Assembly (NCBI RefSeq): GCF_016806835.2
Contig: NZ_CP086114.1
Coordinates: 186,001-250,000, forward strand
Origin: Skermanella rosea
GTDB lineage: Bacteria > Pseudomonadota > Alphaproteobacteria > Azospirillales > Azospirillaceae
Length of the DNA: 64,000 nucleotides
Reading direction: 5' to 3'
Each line of letters opens with the position of its first letter. The stretch's first letter is position 1. Positions 37,641 to 61,967 of this stretch are shown one piece after another. The translations under genes were made by a program, and so were the position numbers. The notes below the pieces were generated by a model. It worked only from the letters and a program-made list of their open reading frames with translations. It searched no databases and was not told where the DNA came from.

Positions 37641-37701
37641 CGAGCCCCGGGGCTTGGTCACCCTATGGGGCTCAAGCAGATCGATTTCCTGGAGAGCCAT
37701 G

Positions 37702-40310: not shown

Positions 40311-42541
<2,231 letters not shown>

Positions 42542-44102: not shown

Positions 44103-44186
44103 GTTGCGCCATGGGCGCAACCTACGGCTCGATGCAGGGCGGAGGTGATGCGGGCCGACGGTCGTAGGTTGCGCCCATGGCGCAAC
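44103..44186. repeat. Perfect 24-base inverted repeat with 36-base loop
   Basis: The left arm GTTGCGCCATGGGCGCAACC+TACG (44103-44126) and right arm (44163-44186) are exactly complementary, and each arm is itself almost palindromic around CCATGG/CCCATGG. The transcript would form a long hairpin or cruciform between the transporter gene and quiC. There is no T-run, so it is not a standard terminator; it could be a REP/MITE-type element or a transcript stabiliser. Confidence 0.85.
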
Positions 44187-44253: not shown

Positions 44254-44273
44254 ATGAACGAACTGGTACGTTC
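44254..44273. promoter_or_regulatory. Shared catabolic operator, site 1 (quiC promoter)
   Basis: ATGAACGAACTGGTACGTTC lies about 50 bases before the quiC start. Its inner 18 bases are palindromic at 14 of 18 positions. The same 20-base motif, with few changes, occurs at 56001, 56034, 57057 and 57087, always before genes of the same pathway. Confidence 0.7.
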
Positions 44274-44321
44274 TTTTCTCAAAGGGGAACGGCCCTCACC
44301 GACAGGATGGGATCACCGAAG

Positions 44322-46223
44322 ATGTCCGACCAGCTGCAGTCCCGGCCCTTGCGCAAGTCCATCGCGACCGTCTCGCTCAGCGGCACGTTGCCGGAGAAGC
44401 TGGAGGCGGCGGCGGCCGTCGGCTTCGACGGGGTCGAGATCTTCGAGAACGACCTGCTGACCTTCGACGGCTCGCCCCGGGATGTCCGCCGCATCGCCGA
44501 GGAGCTGGGCCTCGCCATCACGATCTTCCAGCCGTTCCGCGATTTCGAGGCGATGCCGGACACCGTCCGCGCGCGCAACCTCGACCGCGCCGAGCGGAAG
44601 TTCGACATCATGCAGGCGCTCGGCACCGACCTGGTGCTGGTGTGCAGCAACGTGCAGCAGGCCGCGATCGACGATGACGCCCGCGCCGCGGCCGACCTGG
44701 CCGAGATGGCGGAGCGCGCTTCCCGGCGCGGCCTGCGCGTCGGCTACGAGGCGCTGGCTTGGGGGCGGCACGTCAGCCGCTGGCGGCACGCCTGGGACAT
44801 CGTCCAGCGGGCCGGCCACCCCGCGCTCGGCCTGATCGTGGACAGCTTCCATACCCTGGCTCTGGGCGACGACCCCGCGGGCATCGCGCAGGTCCCGGCG
44901 GACAAGCTGTTCTTCGTGCAGCTTGCCGACGCGCCCCTGCTGAAGATGGACGTGCTGTCCTGGAGCCGGCATTTCCGGTGTTTCCCGGGGCAGGGCGAAC
45001 TGCCGGTCACGGATTTCCTGAAGGCGGTGCTCGCATCCGGCTATGACGGGCCGCTGTCGCTGGAGATCTTCAACGACGATTTCCGGGCGGCACCCGCCCG
45101 GCAGACCGCGCGCGACGGCCTTCGCTCGCTGATCCTGGCGGAAGCCGAGGCCGGCCACGGTCAAGGATTGCCGGCGCCGGTGCCCTTCGACGGCTTCGAG
45201 TTCCTGGAGTTCGCGGTGGACGACGAGGCCGGCCGGGACCTGAGCGGGTTCCTGAAGACACTGGGCTTCCGCCATGCCGGGACCCACCGGTCGAAGGCGG
45301 TCGAGCTGTACCGGCAGGGTCGTGTCAACCTGGTGCTGAACGCCGAGCCGGACAGCGCCGCCGCCGAGCATTTCCAGATGCACGGTCCCTCGGTCTGCGC
45401 CATGGCGCTCCGGGTCGACGATGCGGACAGCGTCGTGGCGCGTGCCGAGGCGCTGCTCTACGGCACCTGGCGGGAGCGGACCGGCGAAGGCGAGCGCAAG
45501 ATCCCCTCCGTCCGCGCTCCCGATGGAACGCTGGTCTATCTGGTCCAGTCCGACGGCTCCGGCCACAGCATCTGGCAGGACGACTTCACCCTGTTCCCCG
45601 CCGGGGAGCCGGCCGATGGGGAAGGGGGCGGTCTGACCTCGATCGACCATGTGGCGCAGGCGCTGCCCAGCGGACGCATGGACAGCTTCGTGCTGTTCTA
45701 CCGCGCGGTGTTCGGCTTCGTGCTGGAGCAGCTCTGGGAATTGCCGGACCCTTATGGCCTGATCCGCAGCCGCGCCATCGTCAGCCCCGACCGGACCGTC
45801 CGGCTGCCGCTGAACATGTCGGAAAGCCGCAAGACGGCGACCGGCCGCTTCGTTTCGGCGACCGCGGGCGCCGGCGTCCACCACGTGGCCTTCGCGTCGG
45901 ACGGGATCGAGCGCACCGCGACCGGCCTTGCGGCGGCGGGCGCCCCGATGCTGCCGGTGCCGGCCAACTATTACGACGACCTGGCGGCGCGCCTCGCGCT
46001 GGATGACGATCTGCTGGAGCGATTGCAGCGCTTCGGCCTGCTGTTCGACCGCGACGACCAGGGCGACTTCGCCCACGCCTACACGGACAATTTCGCCGAC
46101 CGCTTCTTCTTCGAGGTGGTCCAGCGCCGGGGATACCAGCAGTTCGGTGCCGCCAACGCGGGCGTGCGCATGGCGATGCAGGCGATGATGCGCAACCAGT
46201 CGCCGATCGACGACCTGCTGTGA
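44322..46223 (+). CDS. quiC: 3-dehydroshikimate dehydratase (TIM-barrel plus HPPD-like domain)
   Basis: 633 residues from the ATG at 44322. The N-terminal 270 residues are a xylose-isomerase-like TIM barrel (KSIATVSLSGTLPEKLEAAA, VGFDGVEIFENDLL, FQPFRDFEAMP, LIVDSFHTLALGDDP, GPLSLEIFNDDFR) as in bacterial 3-dehydroshikimate dehydratases. The C-terminal part has two glyoxalase-type repeats like 4-hydroxyphenylpyruvate dioxygenase (FEFLEFAVDDEAG; GVHHVAFASDGI; RFFFEVVQRRGYQQFGAANA). This fused form is QuiC1-like; it makes protocatechuate from 3-dehydroshikimate with a divalent metal. It joins quinate/shikimate uptake to the pca genes. Site 1 lies in its promoter. Confidence 0.9.
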   Translation: MSDQLQSRPLRKSIATVSLSGTLPEKLEAAAAVGFDGVEIFENDLLTFDGSPRDVRRIAEELGLAITIFQPFRDFEAMPDTVRARNLDRAERKFDIMQALGTDLVLVCSNVQQAAIDDDARAAADLAEMAERASRRGLRVGYEALAWGRHVSRWRHAWDIVQRAGHPALGLIVDSFHTLALGDDPAGIAQVPADKLFFVQLADAPLLKMDVLSWSRHFRCFPGQGELPVTDFLKAVLASGYDGPLSLEIFNDDFRAAPARQTARDGLRSLILAEAEAGHGQGLPAPVPFDGFEFLEFAVDDEAGRDLSGFLKTLGFRHAGTHRSKAVELYRQGRVNLVLNAEPDSAAAEHFQMHGPSVCAMALRVDDADSVVARAEALLYGTWRERTGEGERKIPSVRAPDGTLVYLVQSDGSGHSIWQDDFTLFPAGEPADGEGGGLTSIDHVAQALPSGRMDSFVLFYRAVFGFVLEQLWELPDPYGLIRSRAIVSPDRTVRLPLNMSESRKTATGRFVSATAGAGVHHVAFASDGIERTATGLAAAGAPMLPVPANYYDDLAARLALDDDLLERLQRFGLLFDRDDQGDFAHAYTDNFADRFFFEVVQRRGYQQFGAANAGVRMAMQAMMRNQSPIDDLL

Positions 46224-46228
46224 GGCAC

Positions 46229-46260
46229 GGCGCCCCGCCTAATTTGCAAAACGGGGCGCC
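46229..46260 (+). terminator. Hairpin after quiC, weak terminator
   Basis: GGCGCCCCG pairs with CGGGGCGCC across a 14-base AT-rich loop, 6 bases beyond the quiC stop. No T-run follows, so termination would be inefficient or Rho-assisted. Confidence 0.45.
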
Positions 46261-46565
46261 GCACTTCATCCAGTGCAATATGCAATGATTTATAAGGCTA
46301 ACAAAAAGTAAATAGGTAAGGTCGTTGATCCGGGCCAGGAACATAGTTTCGCTTCGTCCAAATATCCGGAACATGGGCAGCGGACCACAAAAACAATATC
46401 CTCTTCCGTATATTGCCTTCGTTTGACTTCAGGTTGGCATGTTTCATGCATCGCAGGCCGGCCAGATGAAGGCTTCGGCGGCACGGCGTCACCCCGTGCC
46501 GGGAGTTGCCTCACTTCGGTCAATGGATGGCTCATCGGACGAGCCGCCAATCATGCGAGGCGAAA
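46261..46565. other. Intergenic region, AT-rich first half
   Basis: From about 46265 to 46440 the sequence is clearly more AT-rich than its surroundings, with no supported ORF. It probably contains the promoter of the chemoreceptor gene. No operator-like motif was recognised. Confidence 0.4.
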
Positions 46566-48614
46566 GTGAACACGATTTCTACGACTCAGCGGCAGGGTCC
46601 GGCGCATTTCTTCGGCAACCTGAAGACCCAGACCAAGATCAATGCCGGCTTCGGTGCCCTTCTCGCCGTTCTGATCGGCCTCGGCGGGCAGTCCTGGCTT
46701 TCCGCCCAGGACGGCGAAACCAACCTCCGCGACTACACGGTCCAGACCAACGTGGCGGCCCACATCTCCGAAGCGGAGTCGGAGATCCTTCAGGCCCGCC
46801 TGGCCACCCGGCAGTTCGTCGAGAGCGGCGACAAGGCGCATGCCACCCAATTCGAAGCGAAGTGGCGCCTGGCCGAAGATGCCCTGGCCGCCGCGAGGTC
46901 GCTGATGACGAAGCCGGAGAACATCAGGATCGTCGAGGAAATCCTGGATATGAAGTCCGCATACAAGACTTCCTTCCAGGGCATCATCGAGAAGAACGCA
47001 CGCAAGACCAGCCTGGAAGCAGAGATCCTGACCGATCTGGGCGCTGATCTGCGCAAGATCCTGACCGACCTGCGTCTCGCCGAGATCAAGGACGGGAGCC
47101 CCGAAACGATCGCCAAGTCGGCGCAGGCCGGGGAGAGCTTCCTGCTGGCGCGGGTGGTCGCGGCCCGCTTCATGGACTCCAAGAAGAAGGAGGAGGTCGA
47201 CCGCGTCGCCAAGGAACTCGACGGCGTCGTCGGGCAGCTCGCCGAACTGGCCGCCCTGCCGCTCGTCCCGGGACAGGCGGAACGGCTGGGCGAGGCGAAG
47301 AAGCTGCTCTCAGCCTACGCCCAGGGTTTCGCGGAAATCGCCAAGCTGACGCTGGACATCGATGCCACCGTCCAGCGGATGGCCGAGACCATGGCCCCGC
47401 TCCAGGACAAGACGGAGGCCATCCTGGCGGTTTCCACGAACCTGCGGGCAGCGGTGCAGGCCGAGGCGACCGGGGACGCGGCGACCGCCAAGACCGCGGC
47501 GCTGGCGTTCTGCGGTGCCGCCCTGGCGGTCGGGCTGGTGCTGGCCTGGCTGATCGGGCGCAGCATCGCCGTTCCGGTCGCCTCGATGACGGAAGCCATG
47601 CGCAGGCTCGCGGGCGGCGACACCGACGCCGTGATCCCGGCGGTCGGACGTAAGGACGAGATCGGCCAGATGGCCGGCACGGTGCAGGTCTTCAGGGACA
47701 ACATGATCCGCACCCGCGAGATGGAGCGGGAGGCCCGCGAGGCGGAGGTCCGCGCGGCGGCCGAGCGCAAGGCCGCGATGCTGAAGCTGGCCGACGGCTT
47801 CGAGGCCAGCGTCAAGGGCATCGTCGAGACGGTGGCCTCGGCCGCGACCGAGATGCAGAGCACCGCGTCGGTCATGACCCACACCGCGGACACCACCAGC
47901 CAGCAGGCGACCGCCGTGGCCGCAGCCTCCGAGCAGGCTTCTGCCAACGTCCAGACCGTGGCGGCAGCGACCGAGGAGCTGTCCTCCTCCATCGCCGAGA
48001 TCGGCCGGCAGATCAGCAACTCCAGCCAGGTCGCCGGCCAGGCGGTGGCGGAGGCCGGCCGGACCAGCGAAACGATCAAGGTGCTGGTGCAGGCTGCCGA
48101 GCAGATCGGCCAAGTGGTGGAGCTGATCAACACGATCGCCGGGCAGACCAACCTGCTGGCGCTGAACGCCACGATCGAGGCGGCGCGCGCCGGCGAGGCG
48201 GGCAAGGGCTTCGCGGTGGTGGCGTCGGAGGTCAAGTCGCTGGCCACCCAGACCGCGCGGGCGACCGAGGAGATCAAGTCGAAGGTGGGCGAGATCCAGG
48301 GGGCGACGGGCGGCGCGCAGGCGGCGATCGACGGGATCGGCCGGATCATCGGCCAGATGAACGAGATCACCACCACCATCGCCGCCGCGATCGAGGAGCA
48401 GAGCGCCGCCACGCGCGACATCTCCTCCAACGTCAACCAGGCGGCGCGGGGGACCGACGAGGTTTCGGTGAACATCACCGGCGTGACCCAGGCTGCCGGG
48501 GAGACCGGGGCCGCCGCGGCCCAGGTGCTGGGTGCTTCCGAAGGCTTGGCGCGGGATGCGGAGAAGCTGCGCATTGAGGTGTCGAACTTCATCGCGACCG
48601 TGCGGGCCGCATAG
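46566..48614 (+). CDS. Methyl-accepting chemotaxis protein
   Basis: 682 residues from a GTG preceded by GAGGCGAAA. A first membrane helix ([17 protein letters not shown]) is followed by a ~280-residue mostly helical periplasmic domain of the long four-helix (HBM-like) type, a second helix ([20 protein letters not shown]), HAMP ([20 protein letters not shown]) and the cytoplasmic signalling coiled coil with the hairpin tip [40 protein letters not shown]. It controls flagellar motion through CheA/CheW. Its position inside the aromatic/hydroaromatic island suggests attraction to those acids; helical sensor domains of this type bind small carboxylates in other bacteria. Confidence 0.92.
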
Positions 48615-48634
48615 CTTCCCGTGATCTGAACCCG

Positions 48635-48664
48635 GCCCCGCGGTACTCGCCGCGGGGCTTTTTT
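48635..48664 (+). terminator. Intrinsic terminator of the chemoreceptor gene
   Basis: GCCCCGCGG pairs perfectly with CCGCGGGGC across a 6-base loop and is followed by six T residues, 20 bases past the stop. Confidence 0.93.
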
Positions 48665-49463
48665 CCGGGACATGCCTCCAAACCAATTACCTGAAGTCCC
48701 GGATACGCCCGTTCGGGCACCCGACGCTCGATAAATCGGCACCTCGCCTTTGCCGATATCCGCCGGTCCATGGGTCACGGCCTGGATCTCGACATCGGGG
48801 TCATCATCAGTGTTGACGGTGACCAAGGTATCGCCCCGTCACGACGGCCGGCGAGTTTACCGCGTTCGGTATCGCCACTCGCGCCGACAAAGCTTGGTTT
48901 TTGCCGACCCGCCTTACCGCTGTGCCATTTGGTAGACTAGGGGAATACATCCTTAAGTACGAATAAAATTCAGGCTATCCAAAGGTCTCTATACCAATAA
49001 TCTTTTACACAAAAAATGTCACAGATGTAATATGGTTTCTCTACAATCAAATACGGGCCGTCCACGGTGATGGATTTGGCAATAAACAACTCTTGAGATA
49101 TATCAATCAGGCGTAGCGGAATAAATGAACAAAAGTACCTACGCCAGAAGATCGTATTCAAAGTTGTAACTATATTGGTTAAGTCTCTTTGAATGTGGAT
49201 TGAAACCAATGAAATCCACTTCGCTCGGGAGGAGTGTGTAAATGTCATCTCAATTCGTTGAAATTGAAACCGTCCCTTAAGTTTCTTAGCGGGACGAAGC
49301 AGGAACTCGATGAGGGCTCATGTAGTTCCTGGGGGCTGTCTTGACCTTTTGAATTTATGACCACGCAGAGATCGGGCCGCGATCTCCGGCAGAATGCACT
49401 CTTGAGCGCATTTTGAGCGGCTTCGCGCGCTGTAAATCTCAGTGGCTACCTGGAGTGAAAAAG
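48665..49463. other. AT-rich intergenic region with no supported gene
   Basis: From about 48940 to 49320 the sequence is strikingly AT-rich compared with the rest of the window. A 92-codon minus-strand ORF (48970-49248) rich in Ile/Tyr/Trp shows no recognisable motif and has no convincing ribosome site. The stretch may be foreign DNA or an upstream region acquired with the beta-helix gene. Confidence 0.5.
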
Positions 49464-49684
49464 ATGAAACGTAGAACGTTTCTTCAAGCCGCTCTTGCGT
49501 TCTCCTTTTGCGGTGGTGTCCAATCCGAAACGGCCGTTGCCAATGCTGCCGCGGGCAGGTTGACCACGATCGCTCGCAAGGTGTTCCATACCCGGGCAGG
49601 CAACAGATACAGGATCGTTTGGACCGCCAGCAGCACCGCCGGTACTTTCCGGGTTACCAAATCGGCGATTCGGTGGTTGCCGCC

Positions 49685-50959
49685 CAGGGCTGTTCAGTTC
49701 TCGCTATGAGAGGCGATATGCGAGCGCATTGTCGAAGTTGAGCGCGTTGACGTAGAGTTCGCGGGCGATGTTCTGGACGCCGTTGGCCCGCAGGATGTTG
49801 ATCGCGAAGCTGCGGAACCGGGCGACGTGGGTGGGCTTGACGCGGGTTCGGCTGGCGTCCTCGCCGAACGTGACGTCGCGGACCCAATGGCTCCGGTTTT
49901 CAATCGCCCAGTGCCCCCGGACCGCCCGTCCGAACGCCTCGGCGCCGAGCGCGACCTGGCAGGCGTAGAACGAGACGTCCTCGGTGGCGTGCCACAGGCC
50001 TGACCTGGTGTCCTTGTGCCAGGTCAGGCGGGCGACGCGGGCGGCGCAGACGATTAGGCCGTCCCATTCGGCGTCGAGTTTGCCCCGGACATCGAAGGTC
50101 TCGACCGTGCGGGTCTCGTGGCGGCCGTGGCCCTTGGGATCAACGCTCCTGTGGCTTTCGGCCGGGGGCTGGGTGGCGGCGATGGCCTCGAGCGTGGCCA
50201 GCAGGGTCGGCTGGTTGGCCTTGACCTGGGCGAGCAACGCGTTGCCGGTGTCGCGGGCCGCCTCAAAGGTTTTTTTGACAGTGCAGCGCGTCGGCGGTGA
50301 ACAGCACGCCGCTCAGGCCGAGCTCCGCGATCAGGCGCTGGGCCGCCGGGATCTCGTTGCTCTTGTCGTCGATCTCGCTGTGCGCCAGCAGGATCGCCGC
50401 CTCCGAGGCGAACGCGCTGAGCGCCTGGGCCGCCTTGCGGTCGTTGAGGTGGTCGAAGCTGCCCTTGAGCGTCTTGCCGTCGAGCGCGATCGCCGGCATC
50501 CCGCCCTCGGGGCGCGCCAGCAGGCTGGCGGCGTGCCGGCGGAACGCCCGCTCCAGGGCGTCGGCGTCGAGGTCCTGGAGCACGGTGCGCAGGGTGTTGA
50601 CCGATGGCGCCCGCCTCAGGGCGACGCCGAACAGCTCGTTGAGCAACTCCCGGCGCTGCTCCAGGAAGACGATGATGCGGCGGTACGAGGTCGCGCCGGA
50701 CAGCAGCGCCAGCACGGTGAACAGCAGCAGCGGCGCCAGCGGGTAGCGCTTGCCCGCCGCGCGCCGCGGATCGGGAACCTCGCCCAGGGCCGCGAGAAGC
50801 CGGCCGAACGGTACCATGGCAACCCCCAAGTCCAGGAATTGCCGAGCAAGGATTCACACATTCGCGCGAGATGGTAGACTCTTTCTACGCTGCTTCACAC
50901 CCCGCCAGGACTCGCTGCGCGCGAGTCAGGCGCGCAACGGGGAGAACTGAACAGCCCTG
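49685..50959. mobile_element. ISAs1-family insertion sequence with 10-base target duplication
   Basis: The ends are perfect 18-base inverted repeats, CAGGGCTGTTCAGTTCTC (49685) and its complement ending at 50959. They are flanked on both sides by GGTTGCCGCC (49675-49684 and 50960-50969), a 10-base direct duplication. The 1275-base element encodes one transposase on the minus strand, currently frameshifted. The perfect duplication and ends indicate a recent insertion. Confidence 0.92.
49704..50829 (-). pseudogene. ISAs1-family transposase with one frameshift
   Basis: The N-terminal frame (50829 to about 50276) has VPDPRRAAGKRYPLAPLLLF, AIALDGKTLKGSFDH (first catalytic Asp) and GVLFTADALHCQK (second Asp). 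The C-terminal frame continues TFEAARDTGNALLAQVKANQ, ENRSHWVRDVTFGEDASRTR and ends at 49704. Between them an A7 run (T7 at 50270-50276 on the plus strand) shifts the frame; one A fewer restores CQKKTFEAA. The required shift is +1, which does not fit a -1 programmed frameshift; transcript slippage on A7, a true mutation or an assembly error are possible. Confidence 0.85.
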
Positions 50960-51992
50960 GGTTGCCGCCCGTCCTGAGCAATCCGACCGTCATAGACTTG
51001 AATAAAGTTGCCGCTGACAAGAAGGTTTGGACATTCGGCGCGACGGAAGACGTGGTCTTTTTGCCAAAGTCTACGCCTTGGACTCATGACCGTCTCCAAA
51101 CCATCGGCGGCCGGAACATCGTCTTGATCGGCGGAAAATTCGTTCCAAAATACTTTAGCAGCGCGGTCGGAACACTGAATTTTACCCGAAATTACGGCAC
51201 GGTTTACATCGAAGGTGTTCATGTCGACCATGCCGGTGTCGGCTCGAAGGATGGAGTCGGCTATTTTCACGAGCCGGGTGCATCCAGTGGCAACTTCATC
51301 ATGCAAAACTGCCGGATAGAAAACATCAGTGGTTCACAGAGCGGAACCCATGGCGACTGCTTCCAGCCGCAGGGGTCGGTCAAGAACCTGGGCTTCTATA
51401 ACGTCACCGCGACGACGCATTACCAGGCCTTCATGCTGGAACCGAGGAACCAGCTTGGGTACTCGATCGGCACGATCACGATGGAGCGTGTCGAGGCAGC
51501 CAAACTTCCCGGCCCGGACAGACAGTCTTGGCTCTACTATTTCACCGAACCCGGCACTCCGATCTTCCCCATCACTTTCAAAGATGTCTACGTCACCGAG
51601 GCGCCCGGCCTGCCGGCCGAGTCCAACTTCGTGTATCCCCGCAAAGGCATGCCTGCGGGCGCGGTCCGGAATGGAGACAGGATCGCGTGGCCGCAACAGC
51701 CTTACAACGGCTACATCACTGTCGGCAGGAGAGGCTTCGTCAAGCCCGAGCAATGCGGCATCGGCTACGCCAGGGACGAGCCCGTCATCTGCCGGGAAGG
51801 CATCAGCTTCGTCAAAGGCGCGAACGCTTACGAATTCACGGCGATCTCGGACAAGACCTGTTTCGAATTGTTCCGGACGGGCAGCACCAACGTCACGGTC
51901 AAGGATATCGTCCTTCAGAATGGCGGATAGGCACCGCGGTTCATGGGGGAGCGAGACCCGGGAGCCTTGCGGCTCCCGGACCCGCGGTTCGG

Positions 51993-53006
51993 TCAGTTCT
52001 TCGCCTTGGCGAGCTCGTCGTTCAGCAGCTTGACCATCTCGGGGCTGGCGGCGGCGGAATGCTTCTCGATCACCGGCTGGGCCTTCTCGCGCAGCTTGGC
52101 GATTTCCTCCGGCGGCAGCTCGGTCACCTGCATGCCGTGGCCCTTCAGCTCGGCCAGGGCCTCGTCGCTCTGGCTCCGCGACGCCTGGCGCTGGAAGTCG
52201 CGCGCCTCGGCGGCGGCGTCCCGGATCACCTTGCGCTCGTCCTCGTTCAGCTTGTCCCAGGCCTTCTTGGAGATGATCACGATCTGCGGGTTGTAGATGT
52301 GCCGGGTCACCGCGAGATGGTCCTGGACCTCGTACATCTTGGCCGAGACGACGTTGCTGAACGGGTTCTCCTGGCCGTCCACCGTGCCGGTCTCCAGCGC
52401 GGTGTAGAGCTCGGGGTAGGGCATCGGCACGGGGTTGGCGCCCAGCGCGGTGAACAGGTCGATGAAGACCGGCGACTGGAGCACCCGGATCTTCAGGCCG
52501 GCGATATCGTCGGCCTTGGCGATCGGGCGGCGGTTGTTGGTCAGGTTGCGGAAGCCCAGCTCCCAGTAGCCGAGGCCGACGACGCCCTTGTCCGGCAGCG
52601 ATTCCGCCAGCCTGGTCCCGAACGGGCCGTCCATGACGGCGTCGGCCTGTTCCGGCGTCTCGAACAGGAAGGGCAGGTCGACCAGCGAGAAGTCCTTGGA
52701 CAGCCCGCCGAGCAGGCCGGCGTTCATCACCGACATCTCGACCGTGCCGCCCTGGAGCGCCGACAGCGTCTGCACGTCGCCGCCCAGCGTGCCGCCTGGG
52801 AACAGCCTGATCTTCATCTTGCCGCCGCTCTTCTCCTCGACCAGCTCGGCGAACTTCTCCATCCCCTGGACCTGGGGATGGCCCTTCTGGTTCTGCGCCG
52901 CGAACTTCAGGGTATGGCTGTTGATCTCGGCCGCGGCGGGCTGGGCCAGGACCAGGAGGCCGGGGAGCGCCAGGCAGGCGGCGAGCTTGGTGAATCGGGT
53001 GAGCAT
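51993..53006 (-). CDS. dctP: TRAP transporter substrate-binding protein (DctP family)
   Basis: 337 residues with a signal peptide ending near QPAAAEI. DctP landmarks are LKFAAQNQKGHPQVQGMEKF, IRLFPGGTLGGDVQTLSALQ, GLKIRVLQSPVFIDLFTALG (Arg that pairs with the substrate carboxylate) and ELYTALETGTVDGQENPFSN. It captures the substrate in the periplasm for the DctQM channel encoded just upstream. With aroE in the same transcription direction, quinate, shikimate or a related acid is the likely substrate. Last gene of the aroE-dctQMP unit. Confidence 0.93.
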   Translation of the reverse strand: MLTRFTKLAACLALPGLLVLAQPAAAEINSHTLKFAAQNQKGHPQVQGMEKFAELVEEKSGGKMKIRLFPGGTLGGDVQTLSALQGGTVEMSVMNAGLLGGLSKDFSLVDLPFLFETPEQADAVMDGPFGTRLAESLPDKGVVGLGYWELGFRNLTNNRRPIAKADDIAGLKIRVLQSPVFIDLFTALGANPVPMPYPELYTALETGTVDGQENPFSNVVSAKMYEVQDHLAVTRHIYNPQIVIISKKAWDKLNEDERKVIRDAAAEARDFQRQASRSQSDEALAELKGHGMQVTELPPEEIAKLREKAQPVIEKHSAAASPEMVKLLNDELAKAKN

Positions 53007-53039
53007 TTCTTTCGTTTCCTCCGGTTTATGATGGCGGTG

Positions 53040-54323
53040 TCAGCGCGCCGAGAAGAAGGCGGCCGGGACGGTGACGATCGACGGGAACAGGACCAGGAGC
53101 AGCAGGACCAGGAGCTGGGCCACCATGAAGGGCCAGACACCCTTGATGACGTCCTCCATGCTGATCTTCGAGACGCCGGCCACGACGTTCAGGACGGTGC
53201 CGACCGGCGGGGTGATCAGGCCGATGGCGTTGTTCATGATGAACAGCACGCCGAAATAGACCGGGTCGATGCCCGCCTGCTTGATCACCGGCATCAGCAC
53301 CGGCGTCAGGATCAGGATGGTCGGCGTCATGTCCATGGCGGTGCCGACCACGACGACCAGCAGCATGATCGCCAGAAGCAGCAGCGTCGGGCTGTCCATC
53401 AGCGGTTCCAGCAGGTCGGTGACCATGCCGGGCAGGTCCGCGACGGTGATCATCCAGGCCGAGACCATGGCCGCTGCGACCAGGAACATCACGACCGAGG
53501 TGGTCTTGGCGGCGGTCAGGAACACGTCGTACAGGTCGCTGGGCTTCAGCTCGCGGTAGACGACGGTGGCGACGAAGAGCGAGTAGACGGCGGCGACGAC
53601 GGCCGCTTCGGTCGGGGTGAAGATGCCGAACTTCAGGCCGAAGATGATGATCAGCGGCAGCATCAGGGCCCACAGGCTGTCGATCAGCGCCCGCATCATT
53701 TCCTTCCCGGAGGCGCGGGGCGGCGTGGTGAGCGTTTCCTTGCGGACCACCAGCGCCCATGTCACGACCAGCGCCAGGCCCAGCAGGATGCCCGGGACGA
53801 TGCCGGCCAGGAACAGCTTGGTGATCGACACGTTGCCGGCGACGCCGAACATGATCATCCCGATGCTGGGCGGGATGATCGGGGCGATGATGCCGGCCGA
53901 CGCCACGAGGCCGCCCGACCGCGCCTTGTCGTGGCCGGCCCGGACCATCATCGGCACCAGCAGGGCCGACAGCGCCGCGGCGTCGGCGACCGCCGAGCCC
54001 GACAGGCTGGCCAGGATGCAGGCGGCCAGGATCGCGACATAGCCCAGGCCGCCCCGGATATGGCCGACCAGCGTCATCGCCAGCGTGACGATCCGCTTGG
54101 ACAGGCCGCCGACATTCATGATCTCGCCGGCCAGCATGAAGAAGGGCACCGCCATCAGCGGGAAGCTGTCGGCGCCGTTGATCACGTTCTGCGCCACGAT
54201 CTGGGCATCGAACAGGTCGAGATTGTACATCAGCGCCACGCCGCACAGCAGCAGCGCGAAGGCGATCGGCATGCCGAGCGCCATGGACCCCAGCAGGGAC
54301 CCCAGGAAGATCGTGATGGTCAT
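53040..54323 (-). CDS. dctM: TRAP transporter large permease (DctM family)
   Basis: 427 residues with 12 or more hydrophobic segments. TRAP large-subunit motifs are VINGADSFPLMAVPFFMLAG, SGSAVADAAALSALLVPMMV, IIAPIIPPSIGMIMFGVAGN and IGLITPPVGTVLNVVAGVSK. It forms the Na+-dependent elevator channel together with DctQ. It is 12 bases from the dctQ stop and 33 bases before the dctP start. Confidence 0.94.
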   Translation of the reverse strand: MTITIFLGSLLGSMALGMPIAFALLLCGVALMYNLDLFDAQIVAQNVINGADSFPLMAVPFFMLAGEIMNVGGLSKRIVTLAMTLVGHIRGGLGYVAILAACILASLSGSAVADAAALSALLVPMMVRAGHDKARSGGLVASAGIIAPIIPPSIGMIMFGVAGNVSITKLFLAGIVPGILLGLALVVTWALVVRKETLTTPPRASGKEMMRALIDSLWALMLPLIIIFGLKFGIFTPTEAAVVAAVYSLFVATVVYRELKPSDLYDVFLTAAKTTSVVMFLVAAAMVSAWMITVADLPGMVTDLLEPLMDSPTLLLLAIMLLVVVVGTAMDMTPTILILTPVLMPVIKQAGIDPVYFGVLFIMNNAIGLITPPVGTVLNVVAGVSKISMEDVIKGVWPFMVAQLLVLLLLVLFPSIVTVPAAFFSAR

Positions 54324-54335
54324 CGCGGGTGCCCC

Positions 54336-54932
54336 TTATTTCCTGGTCGTCGAGGTTGCCGGCGCGGTGCCCGCGGCCAGCGGGACGGGCTGGCCGTGGT
54401 GCCCGGCCATCCCCTCCAGCTCTTCCAGTTCCTCGGACTCTCGGACCATGACCAGGTCGGCCTCGGTCGCCTTGCCGGTGGCGACGATGTAGAGGTTGTA
54501 GAGCAGGATCAGCAGGGCGGAGACGCCGAAGACCACGCCGACGCCGTAGAACAGGCCCATGGAGAAGCCGGTGGCGGGGGCCGCGACGTCGATGTTGATC
54601 AGGGTCTGCTGCCAGCTGCCGTCGAGCATCAGCCAGGTCGCGTAGAGCATCAGCAGATGGCTGACCACCAGGCAGACCTTCTTGCCGAGGCTGGGAAGCC
54701 GGCGGACCAGGATGTCGACGCCGAGATGGCCGTGCTCCTTCAGGGCGACGATCGCGCCCAGGAAGGTCAGCCAGACGAACAGCAGGCGCGAGATCTCCTC
54801 CGACGCCGTGATGCCCATGTTGAAGCCGTAGCGAAGCACCACGTTGCCGAACACCAGCACCACCATCGCCGCGAGGCACAGCGTGATGACGATCTTGAGC
54901 AGCGTGAAATAGCCTTGGACTATCTTGTTCAT
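54336..54932 (-). CDS. dctQ: TRAP transporter small permease (DctQ family)
   Basis: 198 residues with four hydrophobic helices and the small-subunit motif ITASEEISRLLFVWLTFLGA then IVALKEHGHLGVDIL. The ribosome site GGAGGGAGGAGACA is very strong. The C-terminal 45 residues form an unusual hydrophilic tail (MVRESEELEELEGMAGHHGQ) not seen in typical DctQ. First transporter gene after aroE, 90 bases away. Confidence 0.92.
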   Translation of the reverse strand: MNKIVQGYFTLLKIVITLCLAAMVVLVFGNVVLRYGFNMGITASEEISRLLFVWLTFLGAIVALKEHGHLGVDILVRRLPSLGKKVCLVVSHLLMLYATWLMLDGSWQQTLINIDVAAPATGFSMGLFYGVGVVFGVSALLILLYNLYIVATGKATEADLVMVRESEELEELEGMAGHHGQPVPLAAGTAPATSTTRK

Positions 54933-55022
54933 TGTCTCCTCCCTCCGAAGTCGGATCGTGCCGGAGTCGGCATTTGGGCCGGCCTGCCGTCGGTCTCCCG
55001 ATTCAGTGTACAGCGCGGCGGC

Positions 55023-55877
55023 CTACATCGAGGCGAAATGCCCGCGCATGCGTTCGGCATCCGGCCGGACGCCGGTGATCAGCTCGAACGCGCCGACCGC
55101 CTGGAAAACCGCCATCCCGCCGCCGTCCAGCGTGCGGCAGCCCAGGCCGCGGGCGACCCGCAGCAGTTCCGTTTCCAGGGGAAAATAGACGATCTCCGCG
55201 ACCCAGAGGGCCGGGTGGAGGAACTCCGCCGGCAGGGGCAGCCCGGGCAGCTTGGCCATGCCGGTCGGCGTGCAGTGGATCAGCCCGCAGGATTCGGCGA
55301 CGTCCTTCGCCAGATCGGTGCCGGCCACGGCCCGGCCCTCGCCGAAGCGGGCGGACAGTTCGGCGGCGAGACCGGCGGCGCGGGACCGGTCCCTGTCGAA
55401 GATCGACAGCCGGCCGACTCCCAGCGCCAGCGCCGCATGGGCGACCGCGGCGCCGGCGCCGCCCGCGCCCAGCTGCACGGCGGTGTCGCGCTTCACGTCG
55501 GGCAGGCCGCGCCGGAAGCTCTCCGCGAAGCCCCACCAGTCGGTGTTGTGGCCGTGGCTCCTGCCGTCCCGGAACACGACCGTGTTGACCGCGCCCAGCT
55601 GGCGGGCGTCGTCGGACAGCTCGTCCAGCAGAGGGATGATCGCCTGCTTGCAGGGATACGTGACGTTCAGGCCGTCGAAGCCCATGCGCCGCGCCGCCTG
55701 GACGAGGTCGGGCAGCGCTTCCGGGCCGAGGCCGAGCTTGTCGATGTCGATCAGCCGGTAGACGTAGCGCATGCCCTGCTCGGCGCCCTCGCGCTCGTGC
55801 ATGGACGGCGTGCGGGACGCCTGGATGCCGGCGCCGATCAGGCCCGCGAGGAACGAGGGGTGGTTCGATGCTGTCAT
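55023..55877 (-). CDS. aroE: Shikimate/quinate dehydrogenase, catabolic type
   Basis: 284 residues from the ATG at 55877 with GGAG upstream. AroE landmarks are SRTPSMHEREG (substrate Ser), LNVTYPCKQAIIPLL (catalytic Lys), GHNTDWWGF (catalytic Asp) and the nucleotide motif QLGAGGAGAAVAHA. After the glycine motif the sequence reads LSIFDRDRSRA; the Asp where NADP-specific AroE proteins have the NRT motif suggests NAD preference, as expected for catabolic quinate/shikimate dehydrogenases. It would oxidise shikimate to 3-dehydroshikimate for QuiC. The upstream extended frame reaches the operators and is not coding. Confidence 0.88.
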   Translation of the reverse strand: MTASNHPSFLAGLIGAGIQASRTPSMHEREGAEQGMRYVYRLIDIDKLGLGPEALPDLVQAARRMGFDGLNVTYPCKQAIIPLLDELSDDARQLGAVNTVVFRDGRSHGHNTDWWGFAESFRRGLPDVKRDTAVQLGAGGAGAAVAHAALALGVGRLSIFDRDRSRAAGLAAELSARFGEGRAVAGTDLAKDVAESCGLIHCTPTGMAKLPGLPLPAEFLHPALWVAEIVYFPLETELLRVARGLGCRTLDGGGMAVFQAVGAFELITGVRPDAERMRGHFASM

Positions 55878-56000
55878 CGGGTGCTCCAGGCAAGGCGGCA
55901 TGGGCCGGGCGCGGCGGCATCGGGACGGCTTTCCCGGGATGCGCTGGTGGCCGCGGCTGAAGTTCCTCCCGAACCGCCTGTTATTCTTCTCGCCCGAAAA

Positions 56001-56053
56001 ATGAACCGACCGGTACATTCCTGTCAAGCAAAAATGTACGAACCGGAACGTTC
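56001..56053. promoter_or_regulatory. Shared catabolic operator, sites 2 and 3 (aroE-dctQMP promoter)
   Basis: ATGAACCGACCGGTACATTC (56001-56020) and ATGTACGAACCGGAACGTTC (56034-56053) match the quiC site and lie about 125-175 bases before aroE. Site starts are 33 bases apart, about three turns, so dimers could bind the same DNA face. Site 3 ends 6 bases from the end of the EamA gene. Confidence 0.72.
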
Positions 56054-56059
56054 AATAAA

Positions 56060-56935
56060 CTACCTCCGTGTCAGGGCGGAGTAGCTGCCCGCGGCGATGA
56101 CGATGCCGGCCCCGACCAGGGTCCATGCGTCCGGGAGGTCTCCGAACACCAGGTATCCGATGATCACGGCCCAGAGCAGCAGCGTGTAGCTGAACGGCTG
56201 GGTCACCGCGACCGGCGCCATCTGGAGGGCCCGGATCAGCAGGAAATGGCCGGCGCCGCCCAGAACCGCCGCCGCCATGAACAATGGCCAGTGCGCCGGC
56301 TCCGGCATCCGCCACTGCAGCAGCGCCGGAACGGAAATCACCACGGCGCCGATGACGATCTGCCACAGCAGGCTGGTCTCGGCGGCATCGACCCGCCCGA
56401 CCAGACGGGTGAGCACTTGGTAGAGGGCGTAGAGCAGGACGGCGGCCAGCACCATCAGCGTCGCCGGCTGGACGACCCCCAGGCCGGGGCGAAGCACGAT
56501 CACGGCGCCCACGAAGCCGGCGGCGATCGCGGCCCATTGCCGGAGCCCGGCCCGCTCCCCCAGCAGCGGCACCGAGAGGGCGGCGACCACCAACGGCGTC
56601 AGCGCCACCACCGCATGCACGTCCGCCAGGGGCAGCCGCCCGAACGCCCAGATGACCATGCCGATCTCGACGGCGAGCAGAAGCGCCCGGGCGCACTGGA
56701 TCCAAGGGCGCTGGGAATGGGCGACGCGGCCGATCCGGCGCGGCGGGATCACCACCAGCAGCAGCGGCACCGTGAACAGGTATCGCAGCCACAGCACCTG
56801 GGGCGCCGAGTAACGGACGCTGAGATACTTGCTGACGGCATCCATCAGCCCGAACAGCAGCATCGCCGCGAGCGTGATGGCGATGCCCCGGAGTTCCCGG
56901 GAACCCGGGGCATCGCCTGGGGAAGGTGTCTGCAC
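56060..56935 (-). CDS. EamA/DMT-family transporter
   Basis: 291 residues from a GTG at 56935 with AGGAAA upstream; a longer in-frame start at 57244 would cross the operators and is unlikely. Ten hydrophobic helices form two EamA repeats (LRGIAITLAAMLLFGLMDAV, LPLADVHAVVALTPLVVAAL; LYALYQVLTRLVGRVDAAET, GAGHFLLIRALQMAPVAVTQ). It probably moves a small metabolite across the inner membrane; export of a pathway intermediate or import of an aromatic acid are both possible. Flanked on both sides by shared operators. Confidence 0.85.
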   Translation of the reverse strand: MQTPSPGDAPGSRELRGIAITLAAMLLFGLMDAVSKYLSVRYSAPQVLWLRYLFTVPLLLVVIPPRRIGRVAHSQRPWIQCARALLLAVEIGMVIWAFGRLPLADVHAVVALTPLVVAALSVPLLGERAGLRQWAAIAAGFVGAVIVLRPGLGVVQPATLMVLAAVLLYALYQVLTRLVGRVDAAETSLLWQIVIGAVVISVPALLQWRMPEPAHWPLFMAAAVLGGAGHFLLIRALQMAPVAVTQPFSYTLLLWAVIIGYLVFGDLPDAWTLVGAGIVIAAGSYSALTRR

Positions 56936-57056
56936 GATGTTTTCCTGATGTTGACGGACGTGTCCCGCGGGCCGGCTGGGATCGACGGGTCGGAGGGAAA
57001 CCGCCCCGCAGACGGGAACATGCTTCCGCATGCCCCCTTTTTTCGCTTGTAGCATA

Positions 57057-57106
57057 ATGGACCGACTGGTAATCCTATTACCAGGAATGTACGAACTAGA
57101 ACGTTC
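57057..57106. promoter_or_regulatory. Shared catabolic operator, sites 4 and 5 (EamA / BKACE-pca intergenic)
   Basis: ATGGACCGACTGGTAATCCT (57057-57076) and ATGTACGAACTAGAACGTTC (57087-57106) are 30 bases apart. Site 4 is the most diverged copy, but it overlaps a perfect palindrome CTGGTAATCCTATTACCAG (57066-57084). The pair is 121 bases before the EamA GTG and about 170 before the BKACE ATG, so it can serve both divergent units. Confidence 0.68.
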
Positions 57107-57273
57107 AAAACCGGACCGCCGGCCAGCTCCAGTATTCGGGTATGCAAAGTCGGTCAAGTCCGGCGGCCGGGATGCCGACTGAACCAGCGCCCCGCGCCGC
57201 TGTTGACAAGATCGAGGCCCGGACATCGCGCGGCGCCCAAGCAAGAACAGACATCCAGGAGGGGGAAGAATCC

Positions 57274-58107
57274 ATGTCCAGACCCGTCGTCATCGCCGTC
57301 GCCATCACCGGATCGGTGCCGCGCAAGAAGGACAATCCGGCGGTGCCGGTGACCCCGTCGGAACAGGTGGAATCGACCCACGAGGCGTTCGAGGCGGGAG
57401 CAAGCCTGGTCCATGTCCATGTGCGCAACCCGGACGAGACGCCGTCCTCCAGCCCGGAGCTGTTCGCGCAGGTCCAGGAAGGCATCCGCAAGCACTGTCC
57501 CGGCATGATCGTCCAGTTCTCGACCGGGGGGCGCGGGCGCGACCAGGCGGCGCGCGGCAGCGCCCTGTACCTGAAGCCGGACATGGCGTCGCTGTCCACC
57601 GGCTCGGTCAATTTCCCGACCATCGTCTACGAGAACGCGCCCGCGCTGGTGACCGACCTCGCCACCCGGATGAAGGAGAACGACATCCGGCCGGAGATCG
57701 AGATCTTCGACCTGTCGCATATCCACGGCGCCCGGCGGCTGATCGACGAGGGGCTGATGAGCAGCCGGCCGCATGTGCAGTTCGTCATGGGCGTCAAGAA
57801 CGCGATGCCGGCCGACGAGCGCCTGCTGGACATCCTGCTGGGCGAGTTGAAGCGGGTGATCCCCGAGGCCACCTGGACGGCTGCCGGGATCGGGCGCTTC
57901 CAGAACGAGGTGATGCGCTGGGTGCTGGAGCGCGGCGCCGACGGCGTGCGCACGGGCCTGGAGGACAATATCCGCATCGCCAAGGACCGGCTGGCCCGGA
58001 GCAATGCCGAGCTGGTCCAGGTCGCCGCCGAACTTTGCGCGAACAACGGCGCCCGGCCCGCGACCGTGGAAGAGGCCAGGCGGATGCTCGACATCCGCGC
58101 CGCCTGA
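57274..58107 (+). CDS. Beta-keto acid cleavage enzyme (BKACE, DUF849 family)
   Basis: 277 residues from an ATG with GGAGGGGGAAG upstream. BKACE landmarks are VIAVAITGSVPRKKDNPAVP, the zinc-binding SLVHVHVRNPDETPSSSPEL, IVQFSTGGRGRDQAARGSAL, IEIFDLSHIHGARRLIDEGL, FVMGVKNAMPADERLLDILL and GVRTGLEDNIRIAKDRLARS. The family condenses a beta-keto acid with acetyl-CoA to give acetoacetate and a new CoA ester. It heads the operon BKACE-pcaBDCHG, so beta-ketoadipate, the product of the following genes, is a natural candidate substrate. That would give succinyl-CoA in one step; this is inference. Confidence 0.9.
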   Translation: MSRPVVIAVAITGSVPRKKDNPAVPVTPSEQVESTHEAFEAGASLVHVHVRNPDETPSSSPELFAQVQEGIRKHCPGMIVQFSTGGRGRDQAARGSALYLKPDMASLSTGSVNFPTIVYENAPALVTDLATRMKENDIRPEIEIFDLSHIHGARRLIDEGLMSSRPHVQFVMGVKNAMPADERLLDILLGELKRVIPEATWTAAGIGRFQNEVMRWVLERGADGVRTGLEDNIRIAKDRLARSNAELVQVAAELCANNGARPATVEEARRMLDIRAA

Positions 58108-58126: not shown

Positions 58127-59470
<1,344 letters not shown>

Positions 59471-59492
59471 AAGCCAAGGAAGGGAGGAACCC

Positions 59493-60293
59493 ATGCCCCA
59501 CGTCACCACCGGGGACGGGACCCGGATCCACTATCGGTTCGACGGAGCCGAGGGGAGCCCGGTCCTGCTGCTGTCCAATTCGCTCGGCACCGTCCTGGAG
59601 ATGTGGGATCCCCAGATGCCCGCCCTGGCCGAGCGGTTCCGCGTGCTGCGCTACGACAGCCGGGGCCATGGCCGCTCCGACGCGCCGGCGGGTCCCTACA
59701 CCATCGAGCGGCTGGGCCGCGACGCGGTCGAGCTGCTGGACGCGCTGGACATCGACAGGGTCCTGTTCTGCGGCCTGTCCAAGGGCGGCATGGTCGGCCA
59801 GTGGCTGGGCGTCAACGCGCCGGAGAGGATCGGGCGCCTGGTGCTCGCCAACACGTCCGCCTTCATCGGCTCGCCCGAAGTCTGGAACGCCCGCATCGAG
59901 ACGGTCAGGCGGGACGGCATGGCCGCGATCGTGCCCGGAGTGATCGACCGCTGGTTCACGCAGCACTTCCGGAAGGCCGATCCCGCCGCCGTGGAGCGGA
60001 TCGCCGCCATGCTGCGCGATACCCCGCCGGAAGGCTACGCCGCCTGCTGCGCGGCGGTGCGCGACATGGACCAGCGCGCCGACATCGCCGGCATCGCCGT
60101 GCCGACGCTGGTGATATCCGGGACCCACGACCTGGCGACGCCGCCGGCCCAGTCGCAGCTGATCGCGGCGGCCATTCCCGGGGCGGCGCTGGTCGACCTG
60201 GACGCGGCGCACCTGTCCAACGTCGAGCAGGCCGACCTGTTCACCCGCAACCTGATCGGGTTCCTCCAGATGACGGAGACCAAGCATGGATGA
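59493..60293 (+). CDS. pcaD: 3-oxoadipate enol-lactonase
   Basis: 266 residues, alpha/beta hydrolase fold: VLLLSNSLGTVLEMWDPQMP (PcaD-type N-terminus), RYDSRGHGRSDAPAGPYTIE, the nucleophile elbow FCGLSKGGMVGQWLG with Ser near 93, ISGTHDLATPP (Asp) and AHLSNVEQADLF (His). It hydrolyses 3-oxoadipate enol-lactone to beta-ketoadipate. It overlaps pcaC by 8 bases, so the two are translationally coupled. Confidence 0.94.
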   Translation: MPHVTTGDGTRIHYRFDGAEGSPVLLLSNSLGTVLEMWDPQMPALAERFRVLRYDSRGHGRSDAPAGPYTIERLGRDAVELLDALDIDRVLFCGLSKGGMVGQWLGVNAPERIGRLVLANTSAFIGSPEVWNARIETVRRDGMAAIVPGVIDRWFTQHFRKADPAAVERIAAMLRDTPPEGYAACCAAVRDMDQRADIAGIAVPTLVISGTHDLATPPAQSQLIAAAIPGAALVDLDAAHLSNVEQADLFTRNLIGFLQMTETKHG

Positions 60294-60675
60294 CCGTGAA
60301 CGCTACGACCGGGGCATGGAGGTGCGCCGCGCGGTCCTGGGCGATGCCCATGTCGACCGCTCCCTGGGCCGCCGCACCCCGTTCAACGAGGAGTTCCAGG
60401 ATCTCATCACCCGCTATGCCTGGGGGGAGATCTGGACCCGGCCGGGCCTGCCGCGCCACACCCGGAGCTGCATGACCCTGTCCATGATGGCGGCGCTGGG
60501 CCACTGGGAAGAGTTCGCCATGCATGTCCGCGCGGCCTTCAACAACGGCCTGACCCGCGACGACATCAAGGAAGTGCTGCTCCAGATCGGGATCTATTGC
60601 GGCGTCCCGGTCGCGAACCACGCCTTCCAGATCGCGCAGGAGGTCTTCGACACCATGGAGGGAGGGAGACCATGA
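60286..60675 (+). CDS. pcaC: 4-carboxymuconolactone decarboxylase
   Basis: 129 residues: YDRGMEVRRAVLGDAHVDRS, PFNEEFQDLITRYAWGEIWT, RPGLPRHTRSCMTLSMMAAL and the active-site segment DIKEVLLQIGIYCGVPVANH are characteristic of PcaC (AhpD-like fold). It decarboxylates 4-carboxymuconolactone to the enol-lactone used by PcaD. It is a separate gene here, not fused to pcaD (pcaL) as in some bacteria. It overlaps pcaH by four bases. Confidence 0.95.
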   Translation: MDDRERYDRGMEVRRAVLGDAHVDRSLGRRTPFNEEFQDLITRYAWGEIWTRPGLPRHTRSCMTLSMMAALGHWEEFAMHVRAAFNNGLTRDDIKEVLLQIGIYCGVPVANHAFQIAQEVFDTMEGGRP

Positions 60676-61382
60676 AACCGAATACGGAATATACCCGGCG
60701 GGACTGGAGCAGCCACCCGCCCTACATCGTTCCGGACTACAAGTCGACGCTGCTGCGCGGTCCGACCAAACCGCTGGTTCCGCTGCCGCACGGCCTGTCG
60801 GAGCTGACCGGCCCGGTGTTCGGCCACGACAGCGTCGGCCCGCTCGACCACGACCTGACGCGGAACGGCGTCCGGAACGGCGAGCCGCTGGGCGAGCGCA
60901 TCATCGTCACCGGCCGGGTGATGGACGAGGCCGGCCGCCCAGTGCCGCACAGCCTGATCGAGGTCTGGCAGGCCAACGCCGCCGGCCGCTACATCCACCG
61001 CTGGGACCAGCACGACGCCCCGCTCGACCCCAACTTCTTCGGCGGCGGCCGCACCGTCACCGACGCCGAGGGCCGCTACCGCTTCGTCACGATCAAGCCC
61101 GGAGCCTATCCCTGGGGCAACCACCACAATGCCTGGCGGCCCAACCACATCCATTTCTCGCTGTTCGGCCCCAGCTTCGTCACCCGCCTGGTCACGCAGA
61201 TGTACTTTCCCGGCGACCCGCTGCTGGCGTTCGACCCGATCTACCAGGGCATCCCGGAGAAGTCGCGCGAGCGGCTGGTGTCGCGCTTCTCGCTCGACGT
61301 GACCGAGCCGATGCAGGCCCTGGGCTACGAGTTCGACATCGTGCTGCGCGGCCCGCGCGCCACCCCGACCCACGAGGACTGA
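60672..61382 (+). CDS. pcaH: Protocatechuate 3,4-dioxygenase beta subunit
   Basis: 236 residues. The N-terminal arm (YTRRDWSSHPPYIVPDYKST) and intradiol core (IIVTGRVMDEAGRPVPHSLI, EVWQANAAGRYIHRWDQHDA, NHHNAWRPNHIHFSLFGPSF) are clear. Fe(III) ligands visible are a Tyr in GRYIHR, a Tyr in AYPWGNHH and the two His of NHIHFS. With PcaG it cleaves protocatechuate between C3 and C4 to 3-carboxymuconate. The start overlaps the pcaC stop. Confidence 0.96.
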   Translation: MKPNTEYTRRDWSSHPPYIVPDYKSTLLRGPTKPLVPLPHGLSELTGPVFGHDSVGPLDHDLTRNGVRNGEPLGERIIVTGRVMDEAGRPVPHSLIEVWQANAAGRYIHRWDQHDAPLDPNFFGGGRTVTDAEGRYRFVTIKPGAYPWGNHHNAWRPNHIHFSLFGPSFVTRLVTQMYFPGDPLLAFDPIYQGIPEKSRERLVSRFSLDVTEPMQALGYEFDIVLRGPRATPTHED

Positions 61383-61385
61383 GCC

Positions 61386-61967
61386 ATGCCCGAGCAGACC
61401 CCCTCGCAGACGGTTGGACCCTATTTCGCCTACGGGCTGGTCCCGGAATCCTACGGCCGGCCCGGCATCGCCGGGGGCCGGATCGGCGACGAGCGATCGC
61501 CGGGCGAGCGCATCGTGGTGACCGGGCGCGTGATCGACGGCGCCGGCAACCCGGTGATAGACAGCCTGGTCGAGGTCTGGCAGGCCGACGCCGAAGGCCG
61601 CTACGACCATCCGGCCGACGGCCGGGGCGCCGACTTCCACGGCTTCGCCCGCGTGGGTACAGACGGGAGCGGCGCCTTCCGGATCGAGACGATCAAGCCG
61701 GGGCAGGTAGCCGGGGCGGATGCCCGGCCGCAGGCGCCGCACCTGAACGTGACGGTGTTCGCCCGCGGGCTGCCCGACCACGCCTACACGCGAATATATT
61801 TCGGCGACGAGGCCGAGGCCAACGCGGCCGACATGGTGTTAAACCTGGTAGAGCCGGCCCGGCGCGGCACCCTGGTCGCCCGGCGCGAGGACACCGCCGG
61901 CGGGCCGGTCTACCGCTTCGACATCCACCTCCAGGGCGACGCCGAGACCGTCTTCTTCGACGCCTGA
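61386..61967 (+). CDS. pcaG: Protocatechuate 3,4-dioxygenase alpha subunit
   Basis: 193 residues beginning EQTPSQTVGPYFAYGLVPES, the standard PcaG start, then IVVTGRVIDGAGNPVIDSLV, EVWQADAEGRYDHPADGRG and PHLNVTVFARGLPDHAYTRI. It lacks the iron ligands, as expected for the structural alpha subunit. It follows pcaH after three bases and ends the pca operon, although the terC gene follows after 33 bases on the same strand. Confidence 0.95.
   Translation: MPEQTPSQTVGPYFAYGLVPESYGRPGIAGGRIGDERSPGERIVVTGRVIDGAGNPVIDSLVEVWQADAEGRYDHPADGRGADFHGFARVGTDGSGAFRIETIKPGQVAGADARPQAPHLNVTVFARGLPDHAYTRIYFGDEAEANAADMVLNLVEPARRGTLVARREDTAGGPVYRFDIHLQGDAETVFFDA

Follow-up and report, generated by a model that had tools for sequence, protein, structure and literature searches.

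A candidate TetR-family operator upstream of quinate/shikimate and protocatechuate catabolic genes in Skermanella rosea and other Proteobacteria

Introduction

Does a short palindrome that recurs beside the quinate/shikimate and protocatechuate genes of Skermanella rosea mark a common regulon, and which protein would bind it? The question was raised by a stretch of 64,000 nucleotides of contig NZ_CP086114.1 (hereafter the window, C4:186001-250000 of a genome of 7.76 Mb in seven contigs). A first-pass annotation had described in it five copies of a 20-base operator, before quiC, before aroE-dctQMP, and between an EamA-family transporter gene and the genes for a beta-keto acid cleavage enzyme (BKACE) and PcaBDCHG. 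The analysis reported here indicates that this motif is very probably the operator of a TetR-family protein encoded just beyond the window, at C4:251264-251935, which would repress quiC, aroE-dctQMP, BKACE-pcaBDCHG, and its own gene. The proposal of a shared TetR-type operator defining a hydroaromatic regulon thus gained support from the rarity of the motif, its conservation, and its presence before one regulator gene. Coordinates below are those of the window unless a contig is named.

Results

The letters at all five positions were as annotated, but only four copies are strong. A search for the 20-mer ATGWACGAACTGGTACGTTC allowing up to three mismatches returned three matches in the window (44254, 56034, and 57087), each with two mismatches or fewer, and none in 100 dinucleotide shuffles. 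A symmetric 22-bp matrix was built from 13 training sites, the four strong window copies and nine from seven related genomes. In the 64 kb, it placed 44254 (44254..44275, 35.6 bits), 57087 (57087..57108, 32.4 bits), 56034 (56034..56055, 30.1 bits), and 56001 (56001..56022, 22.8 bits), all four belonging to the training set, far over background, the next-best non-overlapping place scoring 6.7 bits. All are given on the + strand. The first predicted operator lies 46 bp upstream of the start taken for quiC (44322) and is palindromic at 14 of 18 positions, as had been stated. Operators a (56001) and b (56034) are 33 bp apart, and the one at 57087 lies between the divergent EamA and BKACE-pcaBDCHG genes. 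The window-family consensus of the 22-bp inverted repeat is close to ATGWACGWACYRGTWCGTWCAT, and that of the wider set, drawn by eye, is about TGTACTAACYRGTTMGTACA.

The fifth copy (57057..57076, + strand) did not hold as a full site, since it scored -0.1 bits with the symmetric matrix, no better than background. The half-site TGNACSRACYRG, a pattern written after inspection of the sites, was found on the + strand of the window only at the five annotated positions, and once on the - strand, at 14347. The 57057-57087 region aligns with the 56001-56034 region (local score 60; mean 16.8 and maximum 32 in 200 shuffles), and for this reason 57057 is probably a decayed duplicate of operator a that kept one half-site. 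The corresponding hub of the same-genus genome G003 aligns with both window hubs (scores of 126 with 56001-56034 and 68 with 57057-57087; shuffles 32 or less). These alignments suggest that the operator hub was duplicated during rearrangement of the cluster, EamA ending up between the copies and one site decaying. Two hubs that look like duplicates of each other could also point to a mobile or structural DNA repeat with no regulatory role. We regard this as extremely unlikely, as the operator recurs across genera and families upstream of the same gene set and together with the same regulator gene.

The motif is also rare in the whole genome. In 7.76 Mb, four places match the family palindrome GWACKWACYRGTWMGTWC with one mismatch or none; all lie within 21 kb, namely at 44256, 56036, 57089, and 30 bp upstream of the start of a TetR-family gene. 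Only matches at this level were used, because a looser scan with three mismatches was dominated by noise, the palindrome giving 41 matches per strand and its reversed control 96. The TetR-family gene (65264-65935 in window numbering) encodes 223 amino acids, follows a malic-enzyme gene, and lies 1.26 kb past the window edge and 3.3 kb after pcaG, so that the regulator is nearby and not, as had been supposed, elsewhere in the genome. The predicted operator before its ATG (65214-65235 in window numbering, G000:C4:251214-251235) has one mismatch to the family palindrome. From the sequence alone, palindromic predicted operators are thus present both at the target promoters and at the promoter of the TetR gene itself.

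The annotation had left the choice between a TetR- and an IclR-type regulator. An IclR-type protein was rejected for this gene product (P0008), whose Pfam domains are of TetR type only: TetR_N (PF00440, E 5.7e-14) and TetR_C_29 (PF17938, E 1.9e-48). Its structure model has a TetR fold (predicted local distance difference test score, pLDDT, 89.6), and Foldseek matched it to TetR proteins. It is 76% identical over the matched part to the orthologue in G004, and in two annotated records, taken as examples from the 194 of a plasmid search, the regulator is labelled only "TetR/AcrR family transcriptional regulator".

The motif and this regulator gene were then compared across 59 genomes, the window's own included. 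In relatives, conserved copies of the motif stand upstream of the orthologous gene groups (quiC, aroE, aroQ, and pca), as a true regulon would predict. Seven related clusters (L030-L036, up to 20 kb each) contain quiC, aroQ, aroE, and partly dctQMP and pca genes, and each of the seven has a TetR gene, always of one family, inside it or close by. With at most one mismatch, the motif had 11 matches in related genomes, and each of the 11 stands ahead of a hydroaromatic gene string that has the TetR gene in its vicinity; the string of G014 begins with ABC-transporter-like genes (named by eye). Matches with exactly two mismatches had a cluster gene within 1.5 kb in only one case out of ten.

The TetR gene was detected at E <= 1e-30 in 12 of the 59 genomes. 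The eight genomes with a match of at most one mismatch are all among these 12 (hypergeometric probability 2.2e-7, relatedness not being corrected for), and none of the 47 genomes lacking the gene has such a match. G007, which carries the TetR gene and has no match at this level, contains the cluster and a pair of matrix sites 30 bp apart (22.4 and 15.8 bits). The remaining three of the 12, G011, G028, and G049, carry more distant TetR relatives (40-43% identity) that have no cluster-gene match and no 10-bit site in 20 kb and were treated as paralogues. In G003 and G004, two sites 33 bp apart are located between divergent aroQ-aroE-dct and quiC-BKACE-pca groups, the same spacing as that of operators a and b. 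Cooperative binding on one DNA face would not be required to account for the annotated spacing of 30-33 bp, given the divergent groups flanking these pairs, and each site of a pair may serve its own promoter.

A wider sample was obtained by alignment of the TetR protein alone, from which the best 80 of at least 561 relatives were used. These 80 loci span rhizobia, Azospirillum, Inquilinus, Acetobacteraceae, Acidovorax, Burkholderia, Pseudomonas, and others. Matches to quiC were found in 66 of them, to aroE in 63, aroQ in 31, dctM in 28, EamA in 23, and pcaH in 10, and at least one of quiC, aroE, and aroQ was present in 73.

The matrix was tested on 69 of the 80 loci, with gene starts taken from tblastn. 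Seven loci without quiC, aroE, or aroQ were left out, as were the Azospirillum/Arenibaculum loci L050, L054, L062, and L084, because the training sites come from that family; Inquilinus (L048), placed in Rhodospirillaceae in NCBI's taxonomy, was kept. The best matrix site fell inside the upstream mask, which covers 5% of bases, in 61 of the 69 loci (permuted matrices: mean 7.2, maximum 29), and a score of at least 15 bits was found there in 43 (permuted matrices: mean 0.1, maximum 3). The sites, their conservation, their placement upstream of genes, and their co-occurrence with the TetR gene are computational results on these genomes.

Finally, 289 genomes of the class, including a few dozen already examined, were scanned for exact copies of the palindrome TGNACKWACYRGTWMGTNCA. 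The palindrome occurred at three places, all in newly examined genomes (reversed control: one), and each of the three lies between divergent aroE and TetR genes, the latter about 50% identical to that of the window genome. Another locus, L199 (G117:C42), has three strong sites of 31-34 bits at 9981, 10797, and 15216, before aroE/TetR and two DctP-like genes.

These loci also bear on the LysR gene of the window (38186-39088), which could be supposed to bind the motif, being one of the two regulators near the cluster in the window (the other is of AraC type) and adjoining a pathway gene, aroQ. No match to this LysR gene was found in the best 80 TetR loci or in any of the seven clusters L030-L036, and on this ground it was rejected as the binder. 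The aroQ-LysR genes also have no strong motif copy upstream, and the motif has even palindromic symmetry, unlike LysR boxes, which follow the pattern T-N11-A. Binding by this protein is accordingly very unlikely, and the TetR protein is retained as the candidate.

The position of the sites relative to promoters was also analyzed. In 27 of 66 site-gene pairs, a TTGACA-like -35 hexamer (at least five of six letters) starts no more than 8 bases ahead of the operator; at other offsets, the figure is about 0.25 per offset. The site threshold was 12 bits (7.5 for the window), pairs with TetR as the target gene were excluded, and flank similarity was used to condense 82 pairs to the 66. A small extra peak at offset 28 (four pairs) was put down to paired sites. 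At operator a, a TTGACA (-35-like) on the - strand abuts the site, with a weak -10-like TTCATT, toward aroE-dctQMP; here, as in G003 and G004, the spacer between the two boxes of a predicted promoter reading into aroE or aroQ is occupied by the operator. Since a -35-like hexamer abuts the operator in these 27 pairs, repression is the likely mode of action.

We infer from sequence the binding, repression, autoregulation, and ligand response that make up the proposed mechanism. A TetR dimer would bind the 22-bp inverted repeat and, where the operator starts at a -35-like hexamer, as at many promoters, would block RNA polymerase, keeping its own gene silent along with quiC, aroE-dctQMP, and BKACE-pcaBDCHG. 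Release of the DNA would follow when the C-terminal domain binds an intermediate of quinate/shikimate breakdown (3-dehydroshikimate, shikimate, quinate, or protocatechuate). Of these, 3-dehydroshikimate or shikimate is the expected ligand, the TetR gene being accompanied by quiC (66 of 80 loci) and aroE (63) more often than by pcaH (10).

Alternatively, the TetR protein may bind the operator and act mainly as an activator or together with a second regulator. The available parts of PMC9736018 and PMC3684763 cite Pip (PA0243), probably the orthologue of this protein in Pseudomonas, for positive regulation of phenazine genes. Moreover, several quiC promoters of Pseudomonas have, immediately ahead of the operator, a GTTCGATAATCG-type box resembling an IclR/PcaR motif (PMC8222616, in the part available), as seen by eye. 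In contrast, 27 of the 66 pairs have an operator that starts at a -35-like hexamer, a classical position for a repressor, and this alternative is distinctly unlikely compared with the repression favoured here.

The Pseudomonas loci were analyzed separately. In five named genomes, the Pseudomonas-site pattern with up to two mismatches had 16 listed matches, against two for a control pattern. Nine of the 16 are at quiC or aroQ. These include seven of the eight matches with one mismatch or none, the exception being the chemoreceptor site described below. The TetR gene of P. aeruginosa PA7 (L083; genome of 6.6 Mb) lies beside quiC, aroE, aroQ, and pobA, and the sole site of this genome with at most two mismatches is at quiC. 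We take the order of PA0242-PA0248 in PAO1 to be that of the PA7 locus, PA0243 being the gene beside quiC. From this synteny and the presumed PAO1 order, Pip is likely the Pseudomonas orthologue of the window genome's TetR protein; the PA0243 primer cores printed in PMC5175280 had no match to the PA7 locus.

PA0243 is named Pip in the accessible part of PMC9736018, with a role in pyocyanin genes. According to the portions available of PMC3684763, PMC6060551, PMC4965901, and PMC8361184, it acts through or upstream of phzI/phzR. The likeness to Pip thus lies in the quiC/aroE/aroQ/pobA neighbourhood of PA7, and the difference in its description as a phzI/phzR activator (PMC3684763, in part). If Pip is indeed the orthologue, one could suppose that its primary job is to repress quiC, aroQ, and aroE and that its phenazine effect is indirect. 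Without Pip, 3-dehydroshikimate would drain to protocatechuate and less chorismate would be left for phenazines. This is a tentative idea that we consider rather unlikely: in a pip mutant, phenazines are reportedly restored by expression of phzR (PMC3684763, citing Wang et al. 2012, in the part available), which speaks against a pure precursor effect, and the effect on phzI/phzR also needs explaining.

Other observations were made in Pseudomonas. At loci such as L076, L088, and L124, the GTTCGATAATCG-type box stands directly upstream of the TetR operator at quiC, as seen by eye. This box resembles the IclR/PcaR motif published in PMC8222616 (available in part), which suggests double control of quiC in this genus. 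Pseudomonas sp. FEN (L165, G063:C10:510322) has a perfect operator match some 160 bp upstream of the gene for a chemoreceptor with 4HB_MCP_1, HAMP, and MCPsignal domains. Porin genes of the OprD family in two Pseudomonas genomes have operator-like sites with two mismatches upstream of them (near position 1501 of L169 and L170). The regulon may therefore reach chemotaxis and uptake in Pseudomonas, or these may be chance matches. PcaY is a quinate/shikimate chemoreceptor of P. putida.

Several results weigh against the proposed explanation. The site at the window genome's own TetR promoter is weak by matrix (7.8 bits). In the matrix test, 15 of the 69 loci have no upstream site of at least 10 bits, and a place outside the mask reaches 10 bits in 11 loci and 15 bits in four; moreover, the loci are related, so that the counts are not independent. 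Seven of the 80 loci (L065, L100, L103, L105, L108, L114, and L118) have no match to quiC, aroE, or aroQ. One of them, L065 of Methylobacterium nonmethylotrophicum, has neither a quiC match nor a site found by the matrix, and its TetR gene stands after pcaHG-BKACE-pcaBDC; a changed target or a changed site is possible there. The three exact TGNACKWACYRGTWMGTNCA places represent one family and two genera, and this strict pattern misses the sites of G000, G014, and G015, all of which are in the 289. At the promoters, 39 of the 66 pairs are without a -35 hexamer, and the quiC and BKACE sites of the window lack a good one at their edge. The -35 and -10 boxes are consensus matches, and a count of overlaps (51 of 107, 25.7 expected) is biased, the operator letters resembling a -10. 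In Pseudomonas, seven of the 16 listed matches are not at quiC or aroQ, among them the perfect match before the chemoreceptor gene.

The genes surrounding the sites were assigned by domain scan. The quiC gene (44322..46223, + strand), of 3-dehydroshikimate dehydratase type, has AP_endonuc_2 and HPPD-like domains. The aroE-type shikimate/quinate dehydrogenase gene (55023..55877, - strand) is grouped with TRAP transporter genes on the same strand (51993..54932; dctP 51993-53006, dctM 53040-54323, and dctQ 54336-54932). The EamA-family gene (56060..56938, - strand) and the BKACE gene (57274..58107, + strand) follow. The genes pcaB, pcaD, pcaC, pcaH, and pcaG (58130..61967, + strand) carry Lyase_1, Abhydrolase_1, CMD, PCDO_beta_N plus Dioxygenase_C, and Dioxygenase_C domains, respectively. 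The malic-enzyme gene (62797..64000, + strand) extends beyond the window, ending at 65091 in window numbering.

The aroQ gene (type II dehydroquinase, 37696..38166, + strand) adjoins aroE or quiC in the seven related clusters but stands apart in the window, with no strong operator nearby. It is grouped with the LysR gene and a second DctP-type binding protein gene at 37696-40240, again without a strong operator, and these genes are perhaps a separately regulated uptake unit. A two-piece transposase-like gene (49704-50829, - strand), with DDE_Tnp_1_assoc in the first piece, separates quiC from the dctPMQ-aroE group in the window, whereas quiC and aroE are kept together in L030-L036. A chemoreceptor gene (46527-48614), with a weak 4HB-type match, lies downstream of quiC, and the region upstream of quiC contains a perfect inverted repeat with 24-base arms (44103-44126 and 44163-44186). 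A motif-like place at 41278-41299, about 60 bp upstream of a pobA-like gene, scored 6.2 bits, within background.

Discussion

How does this candidate regulator compare with known systems? RutR, the TetR-family regulator of pyrimidine utilisation in E. coli, shares the fold (its structures are Foldseek ranks 3 and 4, 24% identity) but differs in gene context. It was the best NCBIfam match of five scanned orthologues, P0008 not being among the five, yet at 55 to 63.5 bits against a cut-off of 368 for TIGR03613. DIP1788 of Corynebacterium diphtheriae (PDB 3npi), whose records name no function, is the closest solved structure in sequence, with an E of 3.9e-27 for P0002, and also in fold, as judged from the P0008 model. 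QsuR and QuiR, of Corynebacterium and Listeria, are activators of quinate-shikimate genes and so share the kind of target; they belong to the LysR family, unlike the TetR regulator of the window genome. PcaR, PcaU, and PobR regulate protocatechuate genes and are IclR-family proteins. The PcaU motif, TTTGTTCGATWATCGMACAMA in the part available of PMC8222616, is other than the TetR operator.

In the openly accessible literature, with most subscription papers beyond reach, no paper was found that ties a TetR regulator to these genes via such an operator. A widespread TetR-family regulator would thereby gain a predicted binding site and a set of targets. These make up a candidate regulon for the breakdown of abundant plant compounds, quinate and shikimate, in Alpha-, Beta-, and Gammaproteobacteria, including rhizobia, Azospirillum, and Pseudomonas, and the regulator is predicted to be a natural sensor for compounds of the shikimate pathway.

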